Source: Pseudanabaena biceps PCC 7429
Lineage (GTDB): Bacteria; Cyanobacteriota; Cyanobacteriia; Pseudanabaenales; Pseudanabaenaceae
Length of the DNA stretch: 53,140 bases
Direction of reading: 5' to 3'
Assembly (NCBI RefSeq): GCF_000332215.1
Contig: NZ_ALWB01000005.1
Span: 1-53,140 of the forward strand
Positions 39,093 to 47,422 of this stretch are shown piece after piece. The position numbers and the translations under genes were made by a program. Below the pieces are notes generated by a model. It saw nothing but the letters and a program-made list of their open reading frames with translations, searched no databases and had not been told where the DNA came from. Each line of letters starts with the position of its first letter. The stretch's first letter is position 1.

Positions 39093-39187
39093 AGCTAATA
39101 ATTTTTCAAATTATTGTAATAAGTAGTTAGAAGTTCCAATCTCTCTATTCTAACAATGACAAGCCAAACATTTCTAAACCATAGAGG

Positions 39188-39268
39188 GTAGTGCTAAACA
39201 GTTAAGGATGGGCGGCGCGAAGCGCCGCCCATCCTTACCTGTTTAAATCCTTTCCTTTTTAGGACTAC
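39188..39268. mobile_element. 81-bp palindromic mobile element, family A
   Basis: GTAGTGCTAAA and TTTAGGACTAC are imperfect terminal inverted repeats around a perfect hairpin (AAGGATGGGCGGCGC, loop GAA). It differs from the copy at 44246 at only two positions. It lies between the permease and the binding-protein genes; no target duplication is seen here. Confidence 0.85.
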
Positions 39269-39299
39269 AGTAACTTTTTCAATTATGTAATTCTCAACA

Positions 39300-41937: not shown

Positions 41938-42054
41938 CAAAGCTCAAAATGGCGTAGCCATTTTGAGCTTTGGTATTACAGCAATTATCGATCAAACGAA
42001 CCACAAAGAAATTTTTGAAAGCGTTGCGAAGCAACGCTTTCAAAAATTTCTTTG
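41938..42054. repeat. Two hairpins upstream of the response regulator gene
   Basis: AAAGCTCAAAATGGC-GTA-GCC... (41938-41971) is a lone second hairpin of family C. A perfect 24-bp stem (42004-42027 with 42031-42054, loop GAA) follows. The rest of this 439-base gap (42055-42302) holds a direct repeat of TTTTAGGTGCATA and the probable promoter of the regulator gene; AGAGGAG precedes TTG 42303. Confidence 0.8.
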
Positions 42055-42302
42055 GTTTGGGTTTGAGCGCAATGCGTTGTAAGACTATTATTTGTGGGTA
42101 TTTGTGGGAACGATATTGTGATTGAAAGATTCGTTTCCTCATTATTTCCTCATTATGTTTTTGGATAGTAAGGTGCAAAGCGATAAACTAAAATAAAAAT
42201 CTGAGTTTTAGGTGCATAATTTTAGGTGCATAAGTGGATCGATATAGCTAAATTTACTTAGATATTTATCTCTAGCTAATCGGTATCTTAGAGGAGAAAG
42301 AT

Positions 42303-44249
42303 TTGAAGATTCTAATAGTCGAGGATGATGGCTTTTCGGCAGCAAGACTAGTGCAACTACTCGCTGAATTTCCCTACACCATTGATATTGCTCCTGATGC
42401 AAAAGCTGCATGGCAATATATCGAAACCTATACCTATGACTTGATGGTTCTCGATATCATGCTACCCGATAGCAATGGAATAGATTTATGTGCCAAGTTA
42501 AGAACCTCAGGCTACATGATTCCAGTATTGCTGCTTACCGCTAAGGATAGTATGAGCGATCGCGTGATGGGACTCGAAGCTGGAGCCGATGACTATGTGG
42601 TGAAACCCTACGAATTTCAAGAACTAATTGCCCGAATTCGGGCGTTATTGCGCCGCGCTCACAACCGCGATTCACTGCGACAAACATTGACTTGGGAGAA
42701 TCTGTGTTTAGATTTCGGTAATAATACGATTAGCTATAACCAGAAACCCTTGCATTTAACCCAAAAAGAATATGGAATATTAGAACTACTTCTCAGGCAT
42801 CCGCAACAGATCTTTAGTCGTAGCTCTATACTAGACTTGGTATGGGCGGCAGGAGATTTCCCCAGTGAGGAGTCAGTAACTACCCATATTAAGGGATTGC
42901 GTCAAAAATTAAAGACAGCGGGCATGAGCGCTGATCCCATTGAGACTTTATATGGTTTGGGCTATCGCCTTAGACATGAGCCTTCTCCAGATCGATCTCC
43001 AGATCGGCATCTAGATTGGCATAGTCCAGTAAAGTCAGTATCTGAGCAAATTGCTGAAGCCAAATTAAAAGCTGCGATCGCCGAAATTACCGAAAAACTT
43101 CGAGAGAGTCTCGCTAAATTAATTCCTTTTTTTCGGCAAGTGGCGATCGCTTTGGAGGCAGGAAGTTTGGATCCGAAAATGCGTGATCGGGGTTGTATGG
43201 AAGCGCATCGACTGGTAGGTTCCCTTGGAACCCTAGGATTTCCCCAAGGATCAGCGATCGCTCTTCAGATCGAGCAGCTTTTACAGCATGATTTTTCTCC
43301 ATCTCATAACGATGTTGGACAGTTCCATACATTGATCGATGATTTAGAAACTAGTGCTAACGAACCTCTCAAGATATCCAAGAACTACATTACTAAGGTA
43401 CAGAAACCCATAGACTTTGCTCGTTTCCCTAAGCTGCTGATTGTGGATAGCGATGTGGAGTTCGTCCAAGAGATGCAGCGGGATGCCGAAGCTTGGGGCA
43501 TAGTTGTAGAAACAGCTCATAGTCTTGCTACTGCCAAAGCAAAACTCGAACAAGAAGCTCCTGACATAATTCTATTGGATATCTTACTCGCTGAAAGTAA
43601 CGCTGAAAGTCGCGCTGATAGTAGCGATGGCTTGCGGCTCTTAGATGAACTGTCGCGGAGACAGATGGATATTCCGACATTGATTACCACTGCTAAAGGT
43701 AACTTGAGCGATCGCGTTATGACAGCAAAGAAAGGAGGACATATCTTTATCGAAAAGCCTGCCTTGACCGAGGAAATCCTAGGTGTGATTTCGCAATTAA
43801 TCCATCGCCAGAGGCACGATCGCCCTAGAGTCATGATTGTTGATGATGATCCCCATATATTAGAAGTCTTGAAAATTTTGTTGGCTCAATGGGATTTAGA
43901 AGTGACGCTGCTCCAAGATTGCAAGCAATTTTGGCAAGTTTTAGAATCGACTGCTCCCGATCTGCTGCTGCTGGATTTGAGTATGCCCGACTATAACGGT
44001 ATTGACCTATGCCGTGCGGTCAGAACTGATTCTCTATGGCAATATTTACCGATCGTCTTTCTCTCATCTTCTAGCGATCGCGATACTATTCACCAAGTAT
44101 TTGCGGCTGGCGCAGATGACTATCTCAGCAAACCTATTGTGGAGGAAGATTTACAAACAAGGATTCTCAGTCGTTTAGAACGCAGTCTGGTATCTCGTCA
44201 GGCGGCAGATTTTGACGGGCTCACGGGCTTATATACCCATCGTCGGTAG
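42303..44249 (+). CDS. Response regulator REC-HTH-HPt-REC-REC, truncated before its GGDEF domain
   Basis: A 648-aa protein. REC1 (about 1-118) has the acceptor Asp in LMVLDIMLPD; an OmpR-type winged helix (about 125-222, YLRHE end) follows; an HPt domain (about 260-345) has the His in EAHRLVGSLGTLGF near 302; REC2 (about 378-497) has DIILLDILLAES with a Ser/Ala/Glu insert coded by short repeats; REC3 (about 510-625) has LLLLDLSMPDYNG. The frame ends early in DGLTGLYTHRR, the start of a GGDEF domain, because an 81-bp element is inserted at 44246. The start is TTG 42303 after AGAGGAG. The truncated protein may still signal, but its output domain is cut off. Confidence 0.88.
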   Translation: MKILIVEDDGFSAARLVQLLAEFPYTIDIAPDAKAAWQYIETYTYDLMVLDIMLPDSNGIDLCAKLRTSGYMIPVLLLTAKDSMSDRVMGLEAGADDYVVKPYEFQELIARIRALLRRAHNRDSLRQTLTWENLCLDFGNNTISYNQKPLHLTQKEYGILELLLRHPQQIFSRSSILDLVWAAGDFPSEESVTTHIKGLRQKLKTAGMSADPIETLYGLGYRLRHEPSPDRSPDRHLDWHSPVKSVSEQIAEAKLKAAIAEITEKLRESLAKLIPFFRQVAIALEAGSLDPKMRDRGCMEAHRLVGSLGTLGFPQGSAIALQIEQLLQHDFSPSHNDVGQFHTLIDDLETSANEPLKISKNYITKVQKPIDFARFPKLLIVDSDVEFVQEMQRDAEAWGIVVETAHSLATAKAKLEQEAPDIILLDILLAESNAESRADSSDGLRLLDELSRRQMDIPTLITTAKGNLSDRVMTAKKGGHIFIEKPALTEEILGVISQLIHRQRHDRPRVMIVDDDPHILEVLKILLAQWDLEVTLLQDCKQFWQVLESTAPDLLLLDLSMPDYNGIDLCRAVRTDSLWQYLPIVFLSSSSDRDTIHQVFAAGADDYLSKPIVEEDLQTRILSRLERSLVSRQAADFDGLTGLYTHRR

Positions 44250-44327
44250 TGCTAAACAGGTAAGGATGGGCGGCGCAAAGCGCCGCCCATCCTTACCTGT
44301 TTAAATCCTTTCCTTTTTAGGACTACC
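44245..44327. mobile_element. 81-83-bp palindromic mobile element, family A, inserted in a gene
   Basis: GGTAGT and ACTACC close the element. The 9-10-base sequence CCCATCGTC(G) is present on both sides (44236-44245 and 44328-44337) as a target duplication. Removing the element and one copy restores an open frame through the GGDEF domain. It is nearly identical to the copy at 39188. No transposase is present in the window. Confidence 0.9.
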
Positions 44328-44350
44328 CCCATCGTCGTGGCATTCACAGC

Positions 44351-44818
44351 TTGAACCAACTCATCCATTTGTCGATGCGCAATCACCAAACCTTCTGTTT
44401 GGCAATTTTAGATCTGGACTTATTTAAACAGGTCAATGATCGCTATGGTCACATTGTGGGTGACTTCGTTCTCAAGCAATTTGGGAAGCTCTTACGGCAG
44501 CATTTTCGGAGTGAGGATATAACTATGCGTTGGGGTGGTGAAGAATTTGTGGTGGGATTATATGGAGCTGATTGTCAGCAAGGTATTGACCGCCTCAATA
44601 ATTTACTGACCATCTGGAGACAACAAGAATTTGTATCGTCAGCAAGCGAGGCTTTTAATGTAACCTTTAGTGGCGGATTAGTGGAATGGCCGAAGCATGG
44701 CAATAGTATAAATTTGCTATATGAGGGTATGGATGCAGCTCTATATCAAGCCAAAACAATGGGTAGAAATCGGATAGTTGCGGCTGGAGAAGTTAATGCA
44801 CACAAATTTGTTAAGTAG
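44351..44818 (+). pseudogene. GGDEF domain, downstream part of the split regulator gene
   Basis: This 155-aa piece continues the gene broken at 44245. It holds a diguanylate cyclase core: FCLAILDLDLFKQVNDRYGH binds Mg and the base, RWGGEEF is a functional A-site and RSED before it is an RxxD inhibitory site. The catalytic parts look intact, so it could still be made from TTG 44351, but there is no good ribosome binding site. It is more likely silent or weakly expressed. The stop TAG is formed by the family B element that follows. Confidence 0.8.
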
Positions 44819-44899
44819 CTAAACATAAGTAAACTTAAAACCTAGACGAGCGCACCGCTCACGTAGCGAGCGGTACGCTCTCTGGTTTTGGTTTTAGCT
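44812..44899. repeat. Palindromic element, family B
   Basis: TTAAGTAGCTAAACATAAGT opens it; the core is an imperfect hairpin around GAGCG.ACCGCTC/GAGCGGTACGCTC. The right end is lost. The first bases include the TAG stop of the GGDEF fragment (44816-44818). Confidence 0.72.
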
Positions 44900-44962
44900 A
44901 AAACAAGCCCTCTCAAATCCGCTCTAAAATGGACTTAAATAACTTACGGGAAGGACAAAACA

Positions 44963-47422
44963 TTGGTTACTTGGAACTCATCTTCATTCAATATTAATAT
45001 TTTGCTTGTAGATGATTCGGAAAGCGATCGCCATACCTATATTCGGTATCTACAATCAGACTCTACCCATACCTATAACATTATGGAGGCCGAAACCTTA
45101 GCAGAGGGTTTGGAATTGTGGAAGACCTATCAACCTGATATTGTCCTTGCTGATTATTTCTTGCCTGATGGCGAGGGTTGGGAACTACTTGCCGAGATGG
45201 GGAAAGACGGTCTCCTCCCCAAATTAGATGCGATCGTTTTGACGGGAAAGGCGGGTGACGAAAGGGTTATCTTAAAGCTAATGCGTCTAGGTGTGGCGGA
45301 CTATATCGAGAAGGGAGAGGTTACCCCCTTATCATTATGTAATCGCGTTGGGCAATTAGGCGATCGCATTTTATTAAATCGTCAATTGCAGCGATCGCAG
45401 CAACAGGAGCTATTAATTGCCAGAATCTCGCTCCATATTCGCCAATATCTTGATTTAGAAGAAGTATCTCAAGCGATCGTCCGAGAAGTCCGCCTCTTTT
45501 TAAATGCTGATCGCACCGTAATTTATAAGTTCAATCCCGACTTTAGTGGGGGAGTAGTGGCGGAGTCAGTGTTACCACCTTGGGAAAGCTGTATGCACCG
45601 ACAGCTTAGCGATGAATACTTCCCTGAAACTATGGGCGGAGAATATCGCAAGGGGAGGATTTTTATCGCTCCTGATGTGTATGCCGCAAATCTCAGTGAA
45701 TGCCACCTGCAAATGCTGGAAAGTTTCCCGACAAGGGCTAGCCTGATCGTACCGATTCTCCGCTCCAATAACCAAGATAATCCGCTATGGGGATTGCTAT
45801 GCACCTATCAATGTTTTGAATCGCGCCCTTGGGAAGAGCCTGATATTCGGTTACTTCAGCAGTTGTCAGTCCAATTTGCGATCGCTCTTCAGCAAGCCGA
45901 GCTCTACCGTGATCTCCAGATCAGCAATACCGAATTAGAAAATCGCGTCAACGAGCGCACTGCCGAACTGTTTAAACGCCAGCAGGAATTTATCGCCCTC
46001 GTCGAGAATTCTCCCAATGTAATTGTGCGCCTCGATCGACAATCGCGCATTCTTTACATCAATTCAGCTACTGAAGCTGCATCTGGTATCCCGCCTTCGG
46101 AATTTTTAGGCAAAACTTTTCGCGAAATGAAAATGCCTGAAAAGAATGTTCTCATGGCTGAAGAGCGCGTCAGCAAATTACTGGCGACAGGAGAGCAGCA
46201 AGAGTACGAAATAGACTTCCCTTCGCCCAAGGGAGGGCTAGCCTATTACAAAATCAATATCATTCCTGAGTATGGCGCTAATGGAGCGATCACCACGATG
46301 CTCATGGTTTTTAGCGATATTACTTCCAACGTGCTTAGTGGAAATGCTCTGAGAGAAGCAAACCGTCGTTGGCAATCTTTGCTTGATAACGTCCGCTTAA
46401 TTGTGGTGGGACTCAATACTGAGGGGAGCGTAGAATATGCTAATTCCTTCTTTTTAGAGACAGCAGGTTACAAACTTGAAGAGGTAATTGGGAAAAATTG
46501 GTTTAGTAATTTTTTGCCTGAATATATCCAAGAAGAACTCGATCAGATTTTTGACAAAGCTTTGGTTGAAGAAAATTTCTTAGAGGATTTTCGTCCCCAT
46601 TATCAAAATCCCATTATTACCAAATCAGGAGAAGAACGAGACATCGCTTGGAATAATACAGTTTTGCGAGATCCCGATAATAAAATCGTAGGAACGATCA
46701 GTATTGGCGAAGATATCACGGACAAATTAAAAGTAGACAAAATTAAAAGCGAGTTTATTTCCATTGTCAGTCATGAGTTGCGGACTCCCTTAGCCTCAAT
46801 TCGTGGAGCCTTGGGATTGCTTGCGTCGGGAGTATTAGATACTAAGCCTGACACTGCTAAGCATATGCTTGATATTGCAGTTTCGGATACAGAGAGATTA
46901 GTACGGTTAGTAAATGATATTCTCGACTTAGAAAGGTTAAGCTCTAGCCGCGTCACCCTCGATCGCCATTGGCATGATGTTGCCGATTTGTGCCGACAGG
47001 CGATCGCTACTATGGAAGCTCTCTCCGATCAAAGTCAAATCTCGGTATTATGCGATTTGTCATCGATCCAGATTTGGACTGATGGCGATCGCCTAGTCCA
47101 AACCTTAGTGAATTTGCTTAGTAATGCCATTAAGTTCTCACCGCCCCATAGCGAAGTACACCTTACTGTGGAATCCCAATTTGAAGAAATTCTATTTAAA
47201 ATCATCGATCATGGTCGTGGCATCCCTGAAGAATATTTAGAAAATATTTTTGAGCGATTTAATCAGGTGGATGCTTCTGATGCTCGTCAAAAAGGAGGTA
47301 CAGGCTTAGGTTTAGCCATTTGCCGTAGTATCGTGCAACAGCACGGAGGCAAAATCTGGGTGGAAAGTGTGTTATCCGAGGGAAGTACATTTCTATTTAC
47401 AATTCCCCATCGCCTTGGTTAG
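44963..47422 (+). CDS. Hybrid sensor histidine kinase, REC-GAF-PAS-PAS-HK
   Basis: An 819-aa kinase without membrane segments. An N-terminal receiver domain (about residues 10-125; ILLVDDSESDR, DIVLADYFLPD) is followed by a phytochrome-like GAF domain (about 150-310, with ADRTVIYKFNPDFSGGVVAE), two PAS domains (about 342-455, 472-590), a HisKA domain with the phosphoacceptor His in FISIVSHELRTPLASIRGAL (near 610), and an ATPase domain with N-box LVNLLSNAIKFS and G-boxes DHGRGIP and GGTGLGLAIC. The GAF domain shows no obvious chromophore Cys. The start is TTG 44963. It may act with the split regulator upstream. Confidence 0.88.
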   Translation: MVTWNSSSFNINILLVDDSESDRHTYIRYLQSDSTHTYNIMEAETLAEGLELWKTYQPDIVLADYFLPDGEGWELLAEMGKDGLLPKLDAIVLTGKAGDERVILKLMRLGVADYIEKGEVTPLSLCNRVGQLGDRILLNRQLQRSQQQELLIARISLHIRQYLDLEEVSQAIVREVRLFLNADRTVIYKFNPDFSGGVVAESVLPPWESCMHRQLSDEYFPETMGGEYRKGRIFIAPDVYAANLSECHLQMLESFPTRASLIVPILRSNNQDNPLWGLLCTYQCFESRPWEEPDIRLLQQLSVQFAIALQQAELYRDLQISNTELENRVNERTAELFKRQQEFIALVENSPNVIVRLDRQSRILYINSATEAASGIPPSEFLGKTFREMKMPEKNVLMAEERVSKLLATGEQQEYEIDFPSPKGGLAYYKINIIPEYGANGAITTMLMVFSDITSNVLSGNALREANRRWQSLLDNVRLIVVGLNTEGSVEYANSFFLETAGYKLEEVIGKNWFSNFLPEYIQEELDQIFDKALVEENFLEDFRPHYQNPIITKSGEERDIAWNNTVLRDPDNKIVGTISIGEDITDKLKVDKIKSEFISIVSHELRTPLASIRGALGLLASGVLDTKPDTAKHMLDIAVSDTERLVRLVNDILDLERLSSSRVTLDRHWHDVADLCRQAIATMEALSDQSQISVLCDLSSIQIWTDGDRLVQTLVNLLSNAIKFSPPHSEVHLTVESQFEEILFKIIDHGRGIPEEYLENIFERFNQVDASDARQKGGTGLGLAICRSIVQQHGGKIWVESVLSEGSTFLFTIPHRLG

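Follow-up and report, generated by a model that had tools for sequence, protein, structure and literature searches.

An IS1-type MITE in a multi-domain response regulator gene of Pseudanabaena biceps PCC 7429 and the probable loss of its diguanylate-cyclase output

In Pseudanabaena biceps PCC 7429, an 83-bp non-autonomous IS1-type MITE has very probably jumped into a gene for a REC-wHTH-HPt-REC-REC-GGDEF response regulator and thereby cut off its cyclase output. The window, i.e. the whole stretch of DNA that was analyzed, comprises 53,140 nucleotides of this genome (G000), a draft of 464 contigs with repeats; the features of the window described below lie on the + strand. Insertion of the MITE duplicated 9 bp of target DNA, and the resulting net gain of 92 bp brings a frameshift together with a TAG stop codon at the left boundary of the element, ending translation after the residues DGLTGLYTHRR. 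The phosphorelay and DNA-binding part stays whole. The diguanylate-cyclase output is probably lost because the downstream piece lacks the DxLT turn, offers no good start codon, and has been separated from the receiver domains that controlled it.

As a mobile-element event, such a knock-out by a MITE is of a known, ordinary type. The case represents a clean and datable MITE-driven domain loss with an empty site in a sister species, and the IS1-type MITE family is documented here across a whole cyanobacterial genus. A regulator whose c-di-GMP output seems to have been lost several times may offer a natural setting in which to ask under what conditions a diguanylate cyclase can be dispensed with.

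The interrupted gene and its GGDEF remainder

The first open reading frame (ORF1, 42303-44249, 648 aa) encodes the domains REC-wHTH-HPt-REC-REC followed by DGLTGLYTHRR, and its TAG stop (44247-44249) lies inside the left edge of the MITE. A preliminary description of this DNA had proposed that an element of 81 bp splits the regulator gene; the insertion and the TAG at 44247 stand, whereas the length has to be corrected to 83 bp. Its statement that the codons read on from LYTHR once the element and one flanking copy are taken out is borne out as well: removal of the MITE and one 9-mer joins LYTHR to RGIHSLNQLIHL in one open span of 816 codons, with the insertion site at codon 656. The GGDEF domain, in contrast, is not intact as had been assumed. 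The cut falls inside the domain, and the 3’ piece (44337-44818) aligns with the 161-position Pfam GGDEF model starting only at position 17, so that a complete domain including DxLT is not present there, because the first 11 residues, DGLTGLYTHRR, remain on ORF1. The I-site RSED, the GGEEF sequence and the active-site motifs are kept. The GGDEF fold is entered through the DxLT turn and the helix that follows, and a role in activation is attributed to them (PMC8041772, PMC6733907). The downstream open reading frame harboring the remainder (44351-44818) shows TTG 44351 as the sole in-frame start candidate seen, and the fragment 44337-44818 is probably inactive. Since the genome contains 23 other GGDEF matches, a loss at this gene may be buffered.

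An alternative in which selection has fixed the fission, leaving two working genes, a transcriptional response regulator and a free GGDEF protein translated from TTG 44351, is unlikely, although the fragment has features that would fit it. Besides the retained GGEEF and I-site, its dN/dS between P. biceps and the closest relative (G004) amounts to 0.17 and looks constrained, and the sequence past the lesions of G004 and of a further relative (G002) is also clean. On the other hand, the fragment has neither an ATG nor a clear start, the DxLT motif sits on ORF1, and no promoter-like site was found in 44000-45000. Several relatives are devoid of the whole GGDEF domain. Moreover, relatively more amino-acid changes fall into the fragment on the window’s own branch (6 in 149 codons vs 11 in 645 codons of the rest, p ~0.08), so that selection on it may or may not be relaxed. 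Loss of the cyclase output through the MITE is preferred over fission.

Receiver-controlled diguanylate cyclases are known from PleD, WspR, DgcR, and the REC-GGDEF protein CdgS of Anabaena, which the ancestral protein resembles in this respect; it differs from all four by its three REC domains, the winged helix, and the HPt domain. CdgS, whose published architecture comprises an N-terminal REC domain plus GGDEF (PMC9927289), was set aside as a candidate orthologue on account of this domain make-up.

The inserted element and its IS1 parentage

The MITE (44245-44327, 83 bp) begins with GGTAGTGCTAAA and ends with TTTAGGACTACC; in full it reads GGTAGTGCTAAACAGGTAAGGATGGGCGGCGC AAA GCGCCGCCCATCCTTACCTGTTTAAATCCTTTCCTTTTTAGGACTACC. 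Its 24-nt terminal repeats (left, 44245-44268; right, 44304-44327) are inverted with respect to each other and differ at 4 positions. A hairpin at 44253-44303 is formed by a perfect inverted repeat of 24 bp around a 3-nt loop, with an RNA fold z of -11, far beyond chance. The element is bordered by a 9-bp target duplication, CCCATCGTC, at 44236-44244 and 44328-44336, which is present as a single copy at the empty site of G004. It is non-coding and carries no transposase gene; Rfam revealed no known RNA at the insertion site, and no terminator-like site was found in 44245-44327. More short palindromes, GAAAGCGTTGCGAAGCAACGCTTTC and GCGCACCGCTCACGTAGCGAGCGGTACGC, occur at 42000-42060 and 44845-44885; their ends are unlike those of the MITE, and they probably belong to other repeat families.

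Both ends of the MITE are, judged by sequence identity, IS1 ends, but they match two lineages. P. biceps harbors IS1 elements that measure 826-831 bp and encode an IS1 transposase domain (C1:47073-47903, C131:106-932, and C144:9023-9848), whose ends are GGTAGTCCTAAAAAGGAAAGGAT and whose outer 23 nt are identical to the right end of the MITE. The left 24 nt correspond letter for letter to the end of IS1-type elements of 776-781 bp in two genomes of other cyanobacterial genera (G130 and G142), the one in G142 bearing an 8-bp duplication. Those IS1 copies of P. biceps that are readable in full are frameshifted, no target duplications are visible there, and many contigs of the draft end within IS1 copies. 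A whole copy of 818 bp is found in another Pseudanabaena genome (G022), flanked by an 8-bp duplication and with one intact transposase frame of 261 codons, in which the IS1 DDE domain (PF03400, E 1e-20) and the InsA zinc ribbon (PF03811, E 1e-6) are recognized. The Pseudanabaena IS thus shares with the IS1 family the InsA-type zinc ribbon, the IS1 DDE domain, ends starting with GG, and duplications of 8-9 bp. It differs from IS1 of Escherichia coli, which has an insA/insB’ frameshift pair, in its single open frame, without the programmed frameshift; the latter is not required of all IS1 members. The MITE itself differs from the family in having no gene, and an IS1-family transposase presumably moved it.

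Given that it is short, bordered by terminal repeats, dispersed in duplicated copies, and shares its ends with an IS, the element can be classified by sequence as an IS1-type MITE. IS-derived MITEs are known from bacteria, e.g. Nezha in cyanobacteria, the 187-nt ISL3-type MITE of Microcystis PCC 7806, and MITEAba12 (PMC10969869, PMC11448079). Like these, the Pseudanabaena element is short, non-coding, hairpin-forming, and multicopy, with the ends of an autonomous IS, target duplications, and the occasional splitting of a gene (PMC10969869, PMC11448079). The difference lies in its ends, which are of the IS1 family and match two different IS1 lineages on the left and right.

The GTAG near the 5’ end and the strong hairpin after it would also suit a REP palindrome of the GTAG type, mobilized by an IS200/IS605-like transposase (RAYT). 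This origin is very improbable and was rejected on account of the inverted repeats at both ends, which are IS1-family ends, and of the copies with target duplications of 8-9 bp, since the IS200/IS605 mechanism makes none, even if GTAG REPs as such are known from cyanobacteria. The latter were described elsewhere (PMC3733652).

Copies in the genome and the genus

A BLAST search of the P. biceps genome with the MITE yielded 78 pieces on both strands, which reduce to ~40 places after merging the strands of the palindrome. Perfect duplications flank 16 of the 38 full-length copies (14 of 8 bp, 2 of 9 bp), while ~0.4 are expected by chance when the left and right flanks of these 38 copies are shuffled. 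Matches are present in 26/26 Pseudanabaena genomes, the comparison collections holding one genome per species. Among 145 genomes of the class, only end matches to IS1-type elements and weak hairpin matches were obtained outside the genus. Literature searches retrieved neither a description of this MITE in Pseudanabaena nor a paper naming the family.

A second copy in the window (39187-39269) lies in non-coding DNA and is 98% identical; one base is changed in its right end, and no target duplication is visible. Elsewhere in the genome, a copy at G000:C12:4775-4855 with an 8-bp duplication is situated ~22 codons from where an open frame ends; this frame resembles a sterol-desaturase-type membrane protein. 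At G000:C127:13220-13469, a copy abuts an internal IS1-element fragment at the contig end, reflecting either a nested insertion or recombination. A fully palindromic relative of 55 bp with GTAGTGCTAAA at both ends (G000:C17:33724-33778) is possibly an even smaller derivative of the MITE.

Ancestral fusion and empty site

Fused proteins of the order REC-wHTH-HPt-REC-REC-GGDEF and ~770-830 aa are found in five genomes of the genus (G020, G010, G017, G014, and G013) and in other families; the Pfam domain order was determined for those of G020, G010, and G056. These sequences show that the two present genes go back to one ancestral protein, in agreement with the preliminary description, and the comparison with homologues it had proposed indeed returned a GGDEF domain in the fused relatives. 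The empty site it had suggested looking for in close relatives also exists. The closest relative, G004 (92% identical; locus of Pseudanabaena sp. ‘Roaring Creek’), carries no MITE at the site and only one target copy. In the alignment, its DNA covers 42099-44245 and 44328-44785, the two segments overlapping at the target 9-mer, and the same histidine-kinase gene follows downstream of the response-regulator locus. With this orthologous empty site, the many copies, the target duplications, and the IS1 ends, the view that the element is or once was mobile is well supported. The empty syntenic site implies that the insertion is later than the split of P. biceps and G004 (dS ~0.2). A recent insertion had been claimed before; it holds in the sense of this split, but the argument that an undamaged GGDEF domain by itself dates the event is not supported.

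Misassembly at a repeat, as might be feared in a draft of so many contigs, is an extremely improbable cause of the split and was rejected on synteny: gene order on both sides is the same as in G004, and the element does not reach the length of an ordinary read, lies within a 53-kb contig, and has its own 9-bp duplication.

Recurrent loss of the GGDEF part

G004, despite its empty site, bears a lesion of its own that had not been foreseen: a deletion of 1 nt located a few bases past the target site, after which the frame ends with HRRGIIA and a stop. In G002, a TGA follows HRRGIQVLTQLL in the GGDEF part. In its sister G021, the whole GGDEF domain is deleted, and SRQ runs straight to the gene end, out of frame. 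The orthologues of G022, G005, and G012 end before the GGDEF domain. The regulator half is without a stop in all lineages with a broken or lost GGDEF domain, and beyond the lesions the sequence of G004 and G002 reads clean. In a tree of the retained part, P. biceps with G004, G002 with G021, and the trio G022/G012/G005 next to the intact G017 occupy separate places.

At least five GGDEF losses would follow if each lesion is real; the single-base ones, i.e. the 1-nt deletion of G004 and the TGA of G002, could be assembly errors. For three independent lesions all to strike the fifth of the gene that encodes GGDEF, the chance is ~0.009, and for three to fall within 17 codons in GGDEF it is ~0.03; both are after-the-fact figures that leave out genomes which lost the whole gene. 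These findings suggest a recurrent loss of c-di-GMP output in Pseudanabaena. The most economical interpretation is a dispensable C-terminal cyclase that is easily broken; selection may have favored its removal. A more far-reaching proposal, doubtful at present, is that Pseudanabaena discards the cyclase output repeatedly and selectively while keeping the receiver/HPt/DNA-binding part, a parallel conversion into a plain regulator in which GGDEF would perhaps act as a switchable module.
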